From NCBI GenBank assembly GCA_021323865.1, contig JAJPKF010000026.1, forward strand, positions 61,660-125,659: DNA of 64,000 nucleotides, read 5' to 3'. The stretch is from Pseudomonadota bacterium. GTDB taxonomy: Bacteria > Chloroflexota > UBA5177 > JAJPKF01. Below the pieces are notes generated by a model. It did not search any database, had not been told where the DNA came from, and was given only the letters and a program-made list of their open reading frames with translations. This document shows, in pieces, positions 16,647 through 24,862 of this stretch. The first letter of the stretch is position 1, and each line of letters starts with the position of its first letter. Both the position numbers and the translations under genes were made by a program.

Positions 16647-17765
16647 CTAGCGGTCCCGGTGTCGGCCGTGTCCGCTGCGGATGAGCCGGGTCATCGGCTC
16701 TACATTGGCCTTGTCGCAGGTGTTGGCCAGGCAGCCGAGATGCCAGGCATCCTCCACCGTGGCCAGCAAGGAGAAGTGGTTGTAGGGCACGAACGAGTCG
16801 CGCGGGTGGCCGGCCTTGCTGCGGATGACGATGGTCAAGACGTGGCCCCCGCCCTGACCCGCGGGCGAGTCGCAGCAGCCACTGTCATCGCCGAAGCCCT
16901 GATAGCCGTTGTTGGTGAAGTCAGACTCGTCCCAGGTGATGATGATCGCCGACGGCTGGTGCCAGGCGCGAGAGCTCATGATGGCATCGACGGTTGAATG
17001 CAGAAACGCGTCGCCCATGGAGATCAGGCTCTGGACCTGGGAGAAGTCGCACGGATCGGATGTGGTCGGAGCGGCCACGCCGTGCATGTCGTGGCACTGG
17101 TCGGGGCTGATCCACACGAAGTTGGGAGCCCTCTTGGCGTTTAGGTCGCTCTGTAGCTGCGAGAAGTCGACGATGTTTTTCATCCGGCTGGCGCTGGCCG
17201 CCACGTCCTGGTAGCTGACAAACGGATCGTGCTTGCGCTCGTAGAGCTGGGCCCCGTAATGCGCATCGCCGCAGGCATGGTCGAACTTGTAGTACGTGGT
17301 CTCGCCGGAGATGGTGGTCGGCGTGGCCGTGCCCGAAATGCAGTCGTTCAGGGACTGCATGTATGCCCGCCAGGTCAGATGCCGTGCTTCCAGCTGATCG
17401 ACCAGGTTGGTCACGTTGAGACTCGTGTCGGCGTCCGAGGTCACCCCGTTGAGTGAGCCCGAGGTGGCAGAGATGTAGTTGGGCTGACTGGGATGGGTGA
17501 CACCGTAGTAGTTGCCGGCGACGTTGTACTTTTGCACCGCGGCGTTGATCCAGGGAGCATTGGGATTCCCGAGCAGGGTGTCGTTCCCAGTGTTCTCCAT
17601 CATGATCACGAAAATGTGACGGAGCGCCGTCTTGCCGTGATGCTGGTGATGATGACGATGATGTGCTCCCGAACGGGCAGAGACCGTCCCTCCGACGGCG
17701 AAGAGGGAGAGCGCGAAGGCGGCCACGAGAGCCAAACGAAGCGCAATCTTCCTGCTGTTTCTCAT
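16647..17765 (-). CDS. Secreted phosphoesterase-family protein (acid phosphatase/phospholipase C-like) with His-rich N-terminus
   Basis: Signal peptide; HIFVIMMENTGNDTLLGNPNAPWIN...GVTHPSQPNYISATSG; HHRHHHQHHGK after the signal peptide. Confidence 0.85.
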   Translation of the reverse strand: MRNSRKIALRLALVAAFALSLFAVGGTVSARSGAHHRHHHQHHGKTALRHIFVIMMENTGNDTLLGNPNAPWINAAVQKYNVAGNYYGVTHPSQPNYISATSGSLNGVTSDADTSLNVTNLVDQLEARHLTWRAYMQSLNDCISGTATPTTISGETTYYKFDHACGDAHYGAQLYERKHDPFVSYQDVAASASRMKNIVDFSQLQSDLNAKRAPNFVWISPDQCHDMHGVAAPTTSDPCDFSQVQSLISMGDAFLHSTVDAIMSSRAWHQPSAIIITWDESDFTNNGYQGFGDDSGCCDSPAGQGGGHVLTIVIRSKAGHPRDSFVPYNHFSLLATVEDAWHLGCLANTCDKANVEPMTRLIRSGHGRHRDR

Positions 17766-18599: not shown

Positions 18600-18638
18600 G
18601 TCATCAAACCGTCATCCATCCCACAGAAAGCCGTCATT
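18600..18638 (+). promoter_or_regulatory. Direct-repeat operator (11-bp phase), candidate OmpR-type regulator site
   Basis: GTCATCAAACC|GTCATCCATCC|CACAGAAAGCC|GTCATT: three GTCAT[C/T] at 18600, 18611, 18633, all in 11-bp register; closely matches 22735-22756. Confidence 0.55.
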
Positions 18639-18701
18639 GCGGCTCCCTACGTTGAGATTGTGGGCCGATAGAGACGGCCGAATCAGCGTAGTGGAGACTG
18701 G

Positions 18702-20108
18702 ATGAACAGCGAGATGGTTCGGACACGGAGGCTCCCGCGGACCGTGCCGGCGACGGACACGGTGTGGGACGCCGGCACCGTACGCAGGTTCGCCAGGTCT
18801 GCCCTTCGAGGGGCGCTCGTGGGCGTTCTCACCTCCGGCGCAATGACCATCCTGGCATTCTGGCTGCGCGACGGAGGCGTGATGGGGGCCACCACCCTCG
18901 GCGATGGCCTGACCAGCGCCGGACGCCTGACCGGCCTTCTGGGCACCTATCTGCTGTTGCTCCAGCTCCTACTCATGGCGAGGATCCCATTTGTCGAGTG
19001 GCTTGTTGGGTTTGACCGTCTGACCGTGATGCACAAGCTCAACGGCAAGGCCACCCTGTACTTCATCCTGGCGCACGTGGTTCTGATCACGACCGGATAC
19101 GCCGTGGTCGACCACGTGTCGATTCTTCGCGAGTCGATCATCATGCTGACGACCTATCCCGGGATGATGGCGGCAGTGGCGGGGACGATGCTGCTCATCG
19201 GAGTCGTGGGGACATCGCTGGTTATCGTTCGCCGGCGGCTGCGCTATGAAACATGGTTTCTGGTACACCTGATGGCCTACGCGGCCCTGCTTCTGGCCTG
19301 GTTCCATCAACTGCCCACGGGCAACGACTTTCTCATCAACCCCTTCGCGGCCGCATTCTGGGTGGCCATTTACGTGGCCACCGTGCAGCTCATCGTCCTG
19401 TTCCGGCTCATCCATCCCACCGTTCGGGCCGTCTGGCACGGGCTCAGGGTTGCAGAGGTTGTTCGGGAGGGGCGCGATACCATTTCCATCCGGCTCACCG
19501 GCCGGGACCTGCGCTGGCTGAACGCCCGTGCCGGGCAGTTCTTTCTCTGGCGCTTTCTCGATCGCAGCCGGTGGATGGAGTCCCACCCGTTCTCGCTGTC
19601 GGCGGCCCCGGATGGAAAGTCGCTACGCATCACTGTGAAGGTGCTGGGCGATTACACCTCGAAGTTGGCCGCCATCCGCCCCGGGACGTTCGTGGTGGCC
19701 GAAGGGCCATTCGGACGGTTTGTCGACGACGAGCGTACTACTGATCGGGCGGCCCTGATCGCCGGCGGCGTCGGCATCACCCCCATACGGGCTCTGGCCG
19801 AAGAGATGAACGGCGACGTGGTGATCGTGTACCGGGCGATGAGCGAGGAAGACGTCGTCTTCCGGTCGGAACTGGAGGAGCTGGCTCGGGAGCGCGGCAT
19901 GACCGTCCGATTCGTCCTGGGCGACCATCGACTTCCGGAACATGCCCGGCTGATGTCGGCGGCCCACCTGCGCGAGATCATCCCGGATCTCCGGTCGCGT
20001 GAGGTCTATCTGTGCGGCCCACCCGGCATGGTGCGCCTTCTCGAGCGGAACGTGATCCAAGCCGGCGTCCATAAGTCCCTGATCCACACGGAACAGTTTG
20101 CCCTCTGA
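18702..20108 (+). CDS. Ferric-reductase-like transmembrane / FAD-NAD(P) oxidoreductase
   Basis: Hydrophobic N-terminal half with conserved His; C-terminal FNR fold ESHPFSLSAAPDGKSLRITVKVLGDYT...LIAGGVGITPIRALAEE...YLCGPPGMVRLLE. Confidence 0.9.
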   Translation: MNSEMVRTRRLPRTVPATDTVWDAGTVRRFARSALRGALVGVLTSGAMTILAFWLRDGGVMGATTLGDGLTSAGRLTGLLGTYLLLLQLLLMARIPFVEWLVGFDRLTVMHKLNGKATLYFILAHVVLITTGYAVVDHVSILRESIIMLTTYPGMMAAVAGTMLLIGVVGTSLVIVRRRLRYETWFLVHLMAYAALLLAWFHQLPTGNDFLINPFAAAFWVAIYVATVQLIVLFRLIHPTVRAVWHGLRVAEVVREGRDTISIRLTGRDLRWLNARAGQFFLWRFLDRSRWMESHPFSLSAAPDGKSLRITVKVLGDYTSKLAAIRPGTFVVAEGPFGRFVDDERTTDRAALIAGGVGITPIRALAEEMNGDVVIVYRAMSEEDVVFRSELEELARERGMTVRFVLGDHRLPEHARLMSAAHLREIIPDLRSREVYLCGPPGMVRLLERNVIQAGVHKSLIHTEQFAL

Positions 20109-20142
20109 AGTGCCCGAACCAGCCACCAGAAAGGACAACTCC

Positions 20143-20733
20143 ATGAACCCACTTAAGCCGCATCGCATCGTTCCGGTTGTGGCCATGACCGCGGTCACGG
20201 CCATTCCCGCGCTGACCATGTTCAAGGTGCTGACCACGGCCCCGCAGAGTCAGGCGGCTCCCCGACCGGTGGGCGGCACGACCAATCGGACGACCTCGGG
20301 CTCCACGTCCACGAGGCCAACCCCTGCCACGACCCCTACCGCCGCCTCGCCGACCGCAACGAAGCACTCGGCGACTACGACCGGCCAGTCCACCACGACC
20401 GCAACCGCGACTCCGACCAGGACCCGGGCGTCCGGCTCGACCTCCTCGCGTGTCGCGACGTCCAAGACATACCGCGGCCCCGCGGTCGCCGATCAGTATG
20501 GAATCGTGCAGGCGTCAGTGACCGTGAGGGGCAAGCGCATCGTCGGCGTCTCCATCTCGGCGCCCATGGACAATCCCCGATCCACCATGATCAATCAGAC
20601 CGCGACGCCCATTCTTCGCTCCGAGACGCTGCAGGCGCAGAGCGCCAACGTGGCCGTGGTTTCGGGAGCCACCGAAACCAGCGACGCCTACATGCAATCT
20701 CTGCAGACTGTTCTGCAGAAGGCCGGGCTTTGA
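20143..20733 (+). CDS. Secreted FMN-binding domain protein with Thr/Ser-rich linker
   Basis: Start taken at ATG 20143 (MNPLKPHRI). Signal/TM, TTSGSTSTRPTPATTPT... linker, FMN-bind domain with VVSGATETSDAYMQSLQTVLQKA flavinylation-type SGAT motif. Confidence 0.85.
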   Translation: MNPLKPHRIVPVVAMTAVTAIPALTMFKVLTTAPQSQAAPRPVGGTTNRTTSGSTSTRPTPATTPTAASPTATKHSATTTGQSTTTATATPTRTRASGSTSSRVATSKTYRGPAVADQYGIVQASVTVRGKRIVGVSISAPMDNPRSTMINQTATPILRSETLQAQSANVAVVSGATETSDAYMQSLQTVLQKAGL

Positions 20734-20854
20734 GCACTGTTTCCGCACCAGGACTGGGACATTTAGGACCCAGCGCCTGCCATAACCGTCTAGCATTCGT
20801 TGACGGTCGAAGATCTGGATACCTGTCGCTTAGGAATGCCGCGAGGAGAAAGAG

Positions 20855-21868
20855 ATGAGATTGTTGATGCGCCTCTGCGCCGGCCTATCGTTGTTGATCG
20901 TGGCCGGCGTTGCGCCCGCGGCCCATGCGCAGACGGTCCCAACGGCCCCCAAGGGATTCCGGGTCTCCGTGTTTGCTCAGGGTCTGAATGAGCCGACGGC
21001 GCTGGCGGTGGGTCCCGACCATCGCGTCTACTTCGCCGAGCAAGGCGGTTTCATCGGAGTAGTGGGCCGCCACGGCGTGATGACGGTTGCGACCGGGTTC
21101 TCGACTCCCTTGGGCCTGGCATGGCATGCCCACCGGCTGTACGTGTCCTCGACGGGACGGGTCACAACACTGACTCCGTCCAATCACTTCCGCAGCTTTC
21201 GCCGTCGAACGATCGTCCGAGGTCTGCCGGCCGGCGAACACCAGAATGACGGCCTTGCCTTCCGCGGCAAGTGGATGTACGTGGGCGTCGGCTCGACATG
21301 CAACGCCTGTCGGGAGCCCGACCCTCGCAGCGCCACGATCATGCGGTTCCATGACGATGGATCGCATGCCCAGATCTACGCTCATGGCGTACGCAATCCC
21401 TTTGGTCTCGCCATCCGCCCGGCGACGGGCGGTCTCTACGCGACGGACAACGGACGTGACGACCATGACGACTCGGTCCCTGACGAGCTCAATTTGATCC
21501 TGAAGGGAGGCCGCTATGGCTGGCCGAGCTGCTGGGGCAATCACCTCGGGACCGGTTGTAAGGGAACCATCTCGCCGGTGGCCCTGTTCGAGCCGCACGC
21601 CTCGGCCGACGGCATCGTCTTCTATCGTGCCCATGCTTTCTCCAACAGCTACCGCGGCACTGCCTTCGTGGCTGAATGGGGGGATGACGCCAACAATCTG
21701 GGCACCGGCCACATCGTCAAACTGGTGAGATTCTCCGGGAAACGGACCAGGGTGTCAACCTTCGCCCGTGGCTTTCAGCATCCGCTGGCCGTGACCGTCT
21801 CGCCCAACGGGTCGCTGCTCGTGGCGGATTGGGGGACCGGGATCATCTGGCGGATTCGACGGGGATAG
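20855..21868 (+). CDS. Secreted PQQ-type sugar dehydrogenase-like beta-propeller
   Basis: Signal peptide; GVRNPFGLAIRPATGGLYATDNGRDDHDDSVPDELNLILKGGRYGWPSC is the glucose/sorbosone dehydrogenase motif. Confidence 0.85.
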   Translation: MRLLMRLCAGLSLLIVAGVAPAAHAQTVPTAPKGFRVSVFAQGLNEPTALAVGPDHRVYFAEQGGFIGVVGRHGVMTVATGFSTPLGLAWHAHRLYVSSTGRVTTLTPSNHFRSFRRRTIVRGLPAGEHQNDGLAFRGKWMYVGVGSTCNACREPDPRSATIMRFHDDGSHAQIYAHGVRNPFGLAIRPATGGLYATDNGRDDHDDSVPDELNLILKGGRYGWPSCWGNHLGTGCKGTISPVALFEPHASADGIVFYRAHAFSNSYRGTAFVAEWGDDANNLGTGHIVKLVRFSGKRTRVSTFARGFQHPLAVTVSPNGSLLVADWGTGIIWRIRRG

Positions 21869-21876
21869 CGGCCGGA

Positions 21877-22716
21877 ATGCGGTTCGGACCTGCCACGACG
21901 CTGATGACGGCCATGCTCATCGCTCCGATCGCGCTGCCGACCTCCACGCGGACTGCTTTCGGGCAGGTGACCCTCAATGCCGCCTGCACGCCAAGGGTCA
22001 AGACGTTGGCGAATGGCTTTGGGGCGCCCGACGACCTGGCCGTTCGTGGGCGGCACATCCTCTTCGGCGACATCAGGGCCGGCGAGGTGGTCGAGCTGAG
22101 CGGTGGCCGCCGCCAAATTCTCGTCCGGCATCTGCGGGTGCCTGAGGGCATGGTGGTGGCCGGGAAGCACAAGCTCATCGTCGTGGAGCAGGCTCTCAAC
22201 CGGCTGGATGTCATCAACCTGAAGACGGGAAGGTCGTCCGTGCTGCTCCGGCTGAAGAACGGGACGGGGGCGGCGGGTGTGGACGGCATCGCGGGCTCTG
22301 CCGGAAACCTCATCATTCCCAATAGCCCTTACGGGACCGTGCTTCGGCTTCATGGAGGACGGCTCAGCACGCTGGTCAGCGGACTGTCGAGGCCCACGGA
22401 TGCGACCGGCTATCGCGGAGGTCTGGCGATTGCCGACGAGAACGCGGATGCCATTTGGATGCTTCGCAAGGGCCGGCGCACAAAGCTGGCATCTCTCCCG
22501 ACCCCCGACGACGTGGCGGTGGTGGGCAAGGCGCTGCTGGCCGTCACACTGGGGGACGGATCTCTCTGGGAGATCAAGCCCCGCGTTCGACGCATCTCGC
22601 GTATCTTCAGCCAGCCTCAGGGACTCTTGAGCCTGGGGCATCGAACCGTTATCGTGGCCGACAGCGCCCAGAACCGCATCGTCCGGCTCAGCCTCTCCAA
22701 GGGCTGCCTTCGTTGA
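21877..22716 (+). CDS. Secreted SMP-30/NHL-like beta-propeller
   Basis: Signal peptide; repeated GAPDDLAVRGRHILFGD / GLSRPTDATGYRGGLAIADENADAI / QGLLSLGHRTVIVADSAQNRIVRL blades. Confidence 0.65.
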   Translation: MRFGPATTLMTAMLIAPIALPTSTRTAFGQVTLNAACTPRVKTLANGFGAPDDLAVRGRHILFGDIRAGEVVELSGGRRQILVRHLRVPEGMVVAGKHKLIVVEQALNRLDVINLKTGRSSVLLRLKNGTGAAGVDGIAGSAGNLIIPNSPYGTVLRLHGGRLSTLVSGLSRPTDATGYRGGLAIADENADAIWMLRKGRRTKLASLPTPDDVAVVGKALLAVTLGDGSLWEIKPRVRRISRIFSQPQGLLSLGHRTVIVADSAQNRIVRLSLSKGCLR

Positions 22717-22734
22717 GGTTGGCCGTCATGAAAC

Positions 22735-22756
22735 CATCATCTTTCCCCACCATGGT
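22735..22756 (+). promoter_or_regulatory. Direct-repeat operator upstream of the two-component system
   Basis: GTCATGAAACCATCATCTTTCC, 18/22 identical to GTCATCAAACCGTCATCCATCC at 18600-18621. Confidence 0.55.
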
Positions 22757-22774: not shown

Positions 22775-23446
22775 ATGCGCTTGCTGGTTGTGGAGGATGA
22801 TCCATCGGTCGCCGGCCTGCTTAAGAAGGGGCTGTCCGAGGAAGGCCACGTGGTTGACGTGGTCCACAACGGAGGTGCAGCGCTCGATCAGGCACACGAG
22901 GACATCTACGACGCGGTGGTGCTGGACGTCATGCTTCCAGGCGCCAGCGGGCTGGAAATCGCATCCAGCATGCGTCGAAACGGCGTCCAGACTCCGGTGC
23001 TCATGCTGACCGCGCGAGATGCGCTGCCTGACCGGCTGAAGGGGTTCGACGCCGGAGCGGATGACTATCTGGTGAAGCCGTTCGCGTTTGTGGAGCTGCT
23101 GGCGCGCCTCAAGGCCATCACCAAGCGGATGGGGCTTGCGCAGGAGGAAGACCGTCTGGTGGTTGCCGACCTGGTCATGGATCTGAAGGCCCACGAGGTC
23201 ACGAGGGCCGGGTGCCCCATCGAGCTTTCGCCACGCGAGTACAGCCTGCTGGAATACCTCATGCGCAATGCGGGTCAGGCGCTGAGCCGTACCATGATCC
23301 TCGACCGCGTCTGGGAGTACACCTTTGATTCGTTCGCCAACGTCGTCGACGCCACCATCCGCCGCCTCCGGAAGGCGGTCGACGACAATTTTGACCGTCC
23401 ACTCATTCACACGGTTCGTGGGGTCGGCTATAAGATCAAAGGCTGA
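22775..23446 (+). CDS. OmpR/PhoB-family response regulator
   Basis: MRLLVVEDDPSVAGLLKKGLSEEGHVVDVV...YDAVVLDVMLPGASGLE; winged-helix C-terminus NAGQALSRTMILDRVWEYTFDSFANVVDATIRRLRKAVDD. Confidence 0.96.
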   Translation: MRLLVVEDDPSVAGLLKKGLSEEGHVVDVVHNGGAALDQAHEDIYDAVVLDVMLPGASGLEIASSMRRNGVQTPVLMLTARDALPDRLKGFDAGADDYLVKPFAFVELLARLKAITKRMGLAQEEDRLVVADLVMDLKAHEVTRAGCPIELSPREYSLLEYLMRNAGQALSRTMILDRVWEYTFDSFANVVDATIRRLRKAVDDNFDRPLIHTVRGVGYKIKG

Positions 23447-23452
23447 GAGGCG

Positions 23453-24862
23453 ATGAGATCTGTCCCGCGGCCCTCGATTCTTCGCCGCGGCGCCGGCGGA
23501 GATGACGCGGTTGTCAGCCGCCTCGGCTGGAAGCTGGCCGCGCTGACGAGCCTCCTGCTCATCGGCCTGGTCGTGGCGATGGGAGCAGCCATTTATGTGA
23601 AGGCCGGGTCAGATATGCTCCAGCCGATCCGGAGCATCGCCCAGAGCCGGGCGTCGGAGGATGCCGGCCAGCTCATTCGACCCTCTGGCGCACAGGGGAG
23701 TTTCCGAGGCCACGGAGGATTGCGGACCCCTCCACAGAGCCGGCAGCGACCGCCGGGAAATGAGCCGGTGATCGGCGGTGTGTTTGCCTATGACCTCGGC
23801 CCCAACTTGAAGGTGATCACCTCCAGCTCCGGAGGCCCGCGGGGTCGAAGGGTGCCCTCGCCCCAAGAGGCTCGGGACGTTCTCGATGACCGGGAGGCGG
23901 ACTTTACGACCATCACTGTCCGTGGTGTGCACTACCTCGTCTACACGAGACCGGTCGTGCGCGGTAACACCCTCCTGGGGATCGTGCAGGTGGCCACGCC
24001 ACTGACCGAATACGACAACGGTCGAGAAGCCCTGCTGAAGGTGCTGGTCCTGGTGGGGCTGCTCGGGGTGATTGCCGCGATGGGGATCACCGTGCTGGTC
24101 GTGCGCCGCGCCATGCGTCCCATTCAAGTCTCGATGCGACGTCAGCGGGATTTCGTCGCCGACGCGGCGCATGAGCTACGGACACCGCTGACGATACTTC
24201 GATCGGTCGCCGAGTCGGGAATCGGCCGGGGAGATGCCGAAGAGCAGCAGCGGGCCGAGATGACGCTTCACCAGACCATGCACCTGACGAGGCTGGTATC
24301 GGACCTCTCCCTCCTCGCCCGAGCGGATACCGGCAAGCTCGATTTTGCCCTCGCTCCGGTGGCGCTTGATCTTTTGCTGGCCCAGGTGGTTGACGATGCA
24401 CTCATGCTCGCCGAGGATCGTGGGGTGCATATGCGCTCCGACATCGCGCCTGACGTGACGGTTCAGGGGGATACGGACCGGCTCCGTCAGCTCCTGCTGA
24501 TCCTTCTCGACAATGCGCTGAAGTACTCGCCTCGCGCCGGCACGGTCTCGGTTCAGCTGGGCGTGAGCCGTCGTGAAGCGATGCTGCGGGTGCTGGATGA
24601 AGGCCCGGGGATCGATCCTCAGGATCTGCCCCACATCTTTGAGCGCTTCTACCGGTCAGACCGTTCCAGAACAGGGGACGGAACGGGCCTTGGATTGGCG
24701 ATCGCCGATTCCATTACCCAGGCGCACCATGGACGCATTACCGCTGAGAACCGGTCGGGCTCCGGGGCCGTGTTCACCGTGGTGCTGCCCCTGCTGGACC
24801 ACCGTGGCGCTCTCGAGCGCGACTCAGCGCCTACGCTGCAAGGTGCCTCTGGAAGAAGTTGA
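23453..24862 (+). CDS. Sensor histidine kinase, partner of the preceding response regulator
   Basis: HELRTPLTILRSVAESG H-box, LLILLDNALKYSPRAGTV N-box, GDGTGLGLAIADSITQAHHGRI G-box. Confidence 0.95.
   Translation: MRSVPRPSILRRGAGGDDAVVSRLGWKLAALTSLLLIGLVVAMGAAIYVKAGSDMLQPIRSIAQSRASEDAGQLIRPSGAQGSFRGHGGLRTPPQSRQRPPGNEPVIGGVFAYDLGPNLKVITSSSGGPRGRRVPSPQEARDVLDDREADFTTITVRGVHYLVYTRPVVRGNTLLGIVQVATPLTEYDNGREALLKVLVLVGLLGVIAAMGITVLVVRRAMRPIQVSMRRQRDFVADAAHELRTPLTILRSVAESGIGRGDAEEQQRAEMTLHQTMHLTRLVSDLSLLARADTGKLDFALAPVALDLLLAQVVDDALMLAEDRGVHMRSDIAPDVTVQGDTDRLRQLLLILLDNALKYSPRAGTVSVQLGVSRREAMLRVLDEGPGIDPQDLPHIFERFYRSDRSRTGDGTGLGLAIADSITQAHHGRITAENRSGSGAVFTVVLPLLDHRGALERDSAPTLQGASGRS

Follow-up and report, generated by a model that had tools for sequence, protein, structure and literature searches.

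Flavinylated MsrQ-like redox systems are widespread, and when cells use them is little understood. The window, which is the whole stretch of 64,000 nucleotides of DNA analysed, raises this question for one ferric-reductase/FMN operon (ATG 18702), as similar tandem repeats precede both this operon and the gene of a response regulator downstream (ATG 22775). An autoregulated OmpR/PhoB-type system, in which the 22775 regulator would bind the tandem operators and activate both its own and the MsrQ-like redox operons, is considered highly likely.

All genes of the locus from 18702 through 24862 were on the + strand. The redox operon began with a ferric-reductase-domain/FAD/NAD(P) oxidoreductase, MsrQ-like or NOX-like (18702-20108; PF01794, PF08022, PF00175), and continued with a secreted FMN_bind protein (20143-20733; PF04205), in which an SGATET flavinylation-type motif was read from the sequence. 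A GSDH/ScyD-ScyE-like secreted beta-propeller (20855-21868) and a ScyE-like secreted protein with a weak match (21877-22716) were possibly on the same transcript. A GSDH homologue in G004 (L173:167-1230), approximately 66% identical to 20855-21868, adjoined the orthologous two-component system, and was read in two frames, perhaps from a frameshift.

A PF01794 protein clustered with an FMN-binding protein, typically with apbE included, makes up an MsrQ-like flavinylation system, and such clusters have been described mainly in Actinobacteria (Meheust et al. 2021, PMC8238504). As in those systems, the PF01794 protein had a C-terminal PF00175 NAD domain, its gene was clustered with that of an FMN-binding protein, and ApbE was encoded in the genome. 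Unlike in those systems, there was no apbE in the 18702 operon, and the ApbE (flavin transferase) gene was at C25:244753-245391, beside paralogous operons on that contig. The redox operon probably passes electrons from cytosolic NAD(P)H through the membrane to an extracytoplasmic protein that carries covalent flavin. Two-component control, as proposed here, is not described for MsrQ-like systems in PMC8238504.

The candidate box binder (22775-23446, + strand; Response_reg and Trans_reg_C) was an OmpR/PhoB-type response regulator of the CusR/RppA/HprR-like subfamily, with 98 bits for PF00072 and 92 bits for PF00486. It scored below the cut-offs for PhoB (TIGR02154; 199.7 bits, cut-off 296.2) and HprR (NF008567; 205, cut-off 353), and close to but under the cut-off for CusR/CzcR/SilR (TIGR01387; 260 bits, cut-off 279.2). 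Its identity to Escherichia coli PhoB was 35%, and a scan of the genome contigs with it returned distant relatives only. The cognate membrane histidine kinase (23453-24862, + strand; HisKA and HATPase_c) had a small extracytoplasmic sensor region, and its structure model was of moderate confidence (pLDDT 69.5, with the sensor partly below 50).

An extracytoplasmic Cys-Cys pair was present in five of eight related kinases (L166, L168, L173, L175:10895-12319 and L171:1013-2497), most of which had a further Cys pair; the window kinase and two others were without the sensor Cys-Cys pair. A parallel split was seen in the regulators, whose recognition helix had either ILR or IRR. The sequences suggest two subtypes of the kinases, one that senses redox state or metals and one of a non-Cys type.

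Site 1, GTCATCAAACCGTCATCCATCC, was at 18600-18621, where the earlier note had placed it. Site 2, GTCATGAAACCATCATCTTTCC, was at 22725-22746 and began 50 bp 5' of ATG 22775; the earlier coordinates for it (22735-22756) were 10 too high. The two sites differed at four of 22 positions, in agreement with the 18/22 identity given before, and the DNA flanking one was dissimilar to that flanking the other. When the window was shuffled 100 times with dinucleotides preserved, the site pattern was never matched. With the degenerate pattern of the earlier note, sites 1 and 2 were the only matches at up to three mismatches in the 2.96-Mb genome, and a reversed control pattern had no match at the same threshold and in the same genome. 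The bare core GTCAT-N6-RTCAT occurred eight times in the whole genome, and the six copies besides sites 1 and 2 were, according to simple gene calls, within genes or at a gene end. The genome-wide scan that had been proposed as a check thus found the motif not to be common at random positions.

A weak-site scan of the genome at up to two mismatches returned 98 matches vs. 33 for the control. Among five followed up, C22:54289, ahead of a secreted 389-aa protein, was a plausible if unproven additional site. C30:91613 was approximately 270 nt ahead of the next gene, and the remaining three were in or at genes.

At the redox operon, the operator comprised four boxes on the + strand: GTCATCAAACC (18600-18610) and GTCATCCATCC (18611-18621), both evident in the sequence and conserved in relatives, the degenerate CACAGAAAGCC (18622-18632), recognised with box profiles, and GTCATTGCGGC (18633-18643), recognised by sequence and box profiles. 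The GTCATT that had been reported at 18633 was confirmed: it follows the first box by 33 bp (3 x 11) and is in phase. It is box 4 of the array rather than a third repeat, box 3 being the degenerate one. At the regulator gene, the operator comprised two boxes on the same strand, GTCATGAAACC (22725-22735) and ATCATCTTTCC (22736-22746), both likewise evident in the sequence and conserved in relatives. In both operators, a predicted -10 hexamer lay at an offset of 15 nt from the start of the last box, TACGTT at 18648-18653 and CATGGT at 22751-22756. The latter is a weaker -10, which keeps A2 and T6, and the leader that it implies, of only approximately 12 nt, is unusual; the G005 regulator orthologue had nearly the same short-leader layout.

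The distance to the -10 was evaluated at all exact GTCAT-N6-RTCAT sites in seven genomes, with no promoter criterion for their inclusion and with offsets of TANNNT counted from the start of the second box. Among 56 intergenic sites, TANNNT was found 11, 4 and 12 times at offsets 15, 26 and 37, respectively, and at most twice at any other offset. There was no offset peak among 24 intragenic sites. The three offsets equal 15 + 11k, in register with the 11-bp pitch, so the -10 stays at a constant distance from the last box, and arrays are extended in the upstream direction by 11 bp per box. In the consensus built from 20 four-box promoters, three boxes were strong and the third was weak, the same pattern as in site 1. 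The 11-bp tandem geometry proposed before was therefore right, and extends to four-box arrays and a fixed distance to the -10, as in OmpR/PhoB-type tandem operators; what was called a 22-bp operator is better described as a two- or four-box array plus its -10.

A search of the + strand of the region for sigma-70 promoters found none that had a -35, which fits a regulator that would substitute for this element. The same geometry bears on the direction of control. The boxes overlap the -35 position and site 2 is near the start codon, and both would agree with repression by the same regulator at the same sites, be it of its own operon (negative autoregulation) or of the redox operon. However, a -35 hexamer was not recognisable, and the spacing from box to -10 was that expected for a PhoB-type activator, which makes repression unlikely.

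Conservation was evaluated in seven genomes (G000 to G006), comprising the genome of the window, five of the same order and one of the same class; most relatives were fragmented assemblies, with gene starts called by a simple script. Orthologues and paralogues of the regulator were found by protein similarity search, so the test of their upstream sites was not circular. The 300 bp before each start were scored for two boxes (10 core positions) and a TA..T hexamer, allowed at an offset of 15, 26 or 37 nt counted from where the second box starts, with a maximum of 13. The regulator orthologues were 63-69% identical to the 22775 regulator, and each of the eight in the seven genomes was preceded by GTCAT-N6-GTCAT, exact or with one letter changed, and by a -10-like hexamer at the correct place, which in two of the eight kept only two of three key bases. 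They scored 12-13, and at most 1 in 300 dinucleotide shuffles scored as high. None of 13 paralogous regulators of the same genomes scored above 10.

The site was carried by 9 of 11 ferric-reductase operons. Eight scored 11-13 within 300 bp, including one in G005 (G005b) that scored 11 because its -10 was out of register; the G006 operon had a four-box site 303 nt before the start, beyond the 300-bp limit. In G003, a PRC-like gene immediately preceded the ferric reductase, and the site was ahead of that gene. Sites were absent at the own-genome + strand operon on C25 and at one operon in G003 (G003b). The check in relatives proposed by the earlier note thus separated orthologues from paralogues, and its autoregulated system controlling the redox genes is supported, by sequence comparison, through the conservation of the sites, their spacing to the -10 and their association with both sets of genes.

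Phosphate control would account for some of these features. The PHO box of E. coli consists of two direct repeats of 11 nt that include CTGTCAT (PMC4415409), and it overlaps the -35 (PMC3348028). The present sites are like it in pairing a winged-helix OmpR/PhoB regulator with head-to-tail 11-nt repeats of a GTCAT core, located at the -35 position directly upstream of the -10, and a phosphoesterase gene was close by (16647-17765). They could then be true PHO boxes of the phosphate-starvation PhoB, with the redox operon in the Pho regulon. Against this, none of four pst-phoU clusters, two of which were partial loci, had the composite site. The clusters in G003 and G004 had their own PhoB-like regulators, 38% identical to the 22775 regulator, and no linked regulator was seen in the G000 cluster or the G006 fragment. 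The targets here were redox, envelope and regulator genes rather than phosphate uptake genes, with no pst/phoU linkage, unlike those of E. coli PhoB, and many promoters had four boxes with a degenerate third, unlike the PHO box. Membership in the Pho regulon was rejected on the pst-phoU clusters without the composite box and on the linked regulators, which, where present, were different; the reading is very unlikely.

Likewise very improbable is that another OmpR-family regulator binds the boxes, with the neighbouring two-component system as just one of its targets. The genome has at least three further regulators 44-55% identical to the 22775 regulator, and OmpR-family sites resemble each other. 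However, the boxes were at all orthologues of the 22775 regulator in the seven genomes and at no paralogue, and the recognition helix differed in box-free paralogues (NVVDATIRRLRKAV against NVVDIYVHYLRNKI). A chance resemblance between the sites, or their origin by a recent duplication of intergenic DNA, which could be suspected with just two strong sites in the window, is practically negligible given the absence of matches in shuffles, the uniqueness of the sites genome-wide, their unlike flanks and, contradicting it directly, their conservation across different genera and families.

Across the phylum, the composite exact pattern occurred 14 times in the 7 genomes of the class vs. 17 times in 144 other genomes. 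Regulators (46-56% identity) and ferric reductases (39-44%) of other classes were generally without the composite site in the stretch scanned, and related TTCAT repeats were found at two regulators from other classes (L125 and L134). Similar boxes near other regulators in the phylum mean that, as judged from sequence, the specificity is not unique to this regulator family.

In a small 1.7-Mb genome elsewhere in the phylum, four GTCAT-N6-GTCAT-N10-TATNNT sites, closely similar to each other, occurred at G033:C1 positions 657390, 1120549, 1124794 and 1668088; they may form a regulon of their own that uses the same operator code. The composite site was also found within approximately 200 bp of other OmpR-type regulators on the opposite strand (G091:C1:4098047, G099:C258:49211 and G026:C34:2654), which suggests putative autoregulated divergent promoters of a similar kind.

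Activation by the 22775 regulator, the preferred reading, would extend beyond the window. A third site in the same genome, with four boxes and TACGGT (C25:242251-242304, - strand), was 56 nt upstream of a paralogous ferric-reductase/FMN operon. The surrounding region (G000:C25:239762-245391, L162) had two divergent paralogous operons of this kind, with boxes only at the leftward one. A full ApbE gene was present to one side of them and an ApbE-like fragment (118-aa frame) to the opposite side. In relatives, sites with a correct -10 preceded genes for FMN_bind, PRC-barrel, GtrA, PMT_2 mannosyltransferase, HtrA-like protease, DUF5666, intradiol-dioxygenase-like, DoxD-Rieske and arylsulfotransferase proteins; the boxes before genes other than ferric reductases indicate that the regulator may be a broader envelope regulator. 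Back-to-back box arrays were present in G006 (L179:1326-1412) between the regulator gene and a divergent HtrA-like protease gene.

In the mechanism proposed, kinase 23453 would respond to an envelope or redox signal, as we infer, and phosphorylate regulator 22775. The phosphorylated regulator would bind the GTCAT boxes head-to-tail at the 11-bp pitch, with two monomers occupying its own promoter and up to four that of the redox operon. With the last GTCAT ending 10 bp 5' of the -10 and the array in place of the -35, the bound regulator would recruit RNA polymerase in the manner of PhoB. It would activate its own operon, the 18702 ferric-reductase/FMN operon and the paralogous ferric-reductase/FMN operon elsewhere in the genome; very probably, then, it switches on its own expression together with that of the redox genes.

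The nearest functional parallel is in E. coli, in which HprSR and CusSR control msrPQ through the inverted repeat CATTACAAAATTGTAATG (PMC9302797). Both cases combine a two-component system of the heavy-metal/HprR subfamily with a membrane redox protein of the MsrQ family, the control being predicted here. The present operators differ in being direct repeats, and the operon in having no MsrP and a ferric reductase with its own FAD/NAD module.

No published description of the regulon was found in the literature, and it is apparently undescribed, the class of mechanism being already known. A class-wide reading, given slightly less than an even chance, is that a PhoB-like operator code of two or four GTCAT boxes fused to a -10 was taken over by a separate two-component family. 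Under the control of this family would be transmembrane flavin electron transfer along with genes for envelope glycosylation, for proteolysis and for Rieske/dioxygenase proteins, in a general response to extracytoplasmic redox stress. A motif that resembles the PHO box does not by itself imply phosphate control. The regulator, its operator, the promoter spacing and a list of co-regulated genes can be read from sequence alone in uncultivated relatives, and reading out the regulon in this way offers a route to the signal and the physiological role of flavinylated redox systems.
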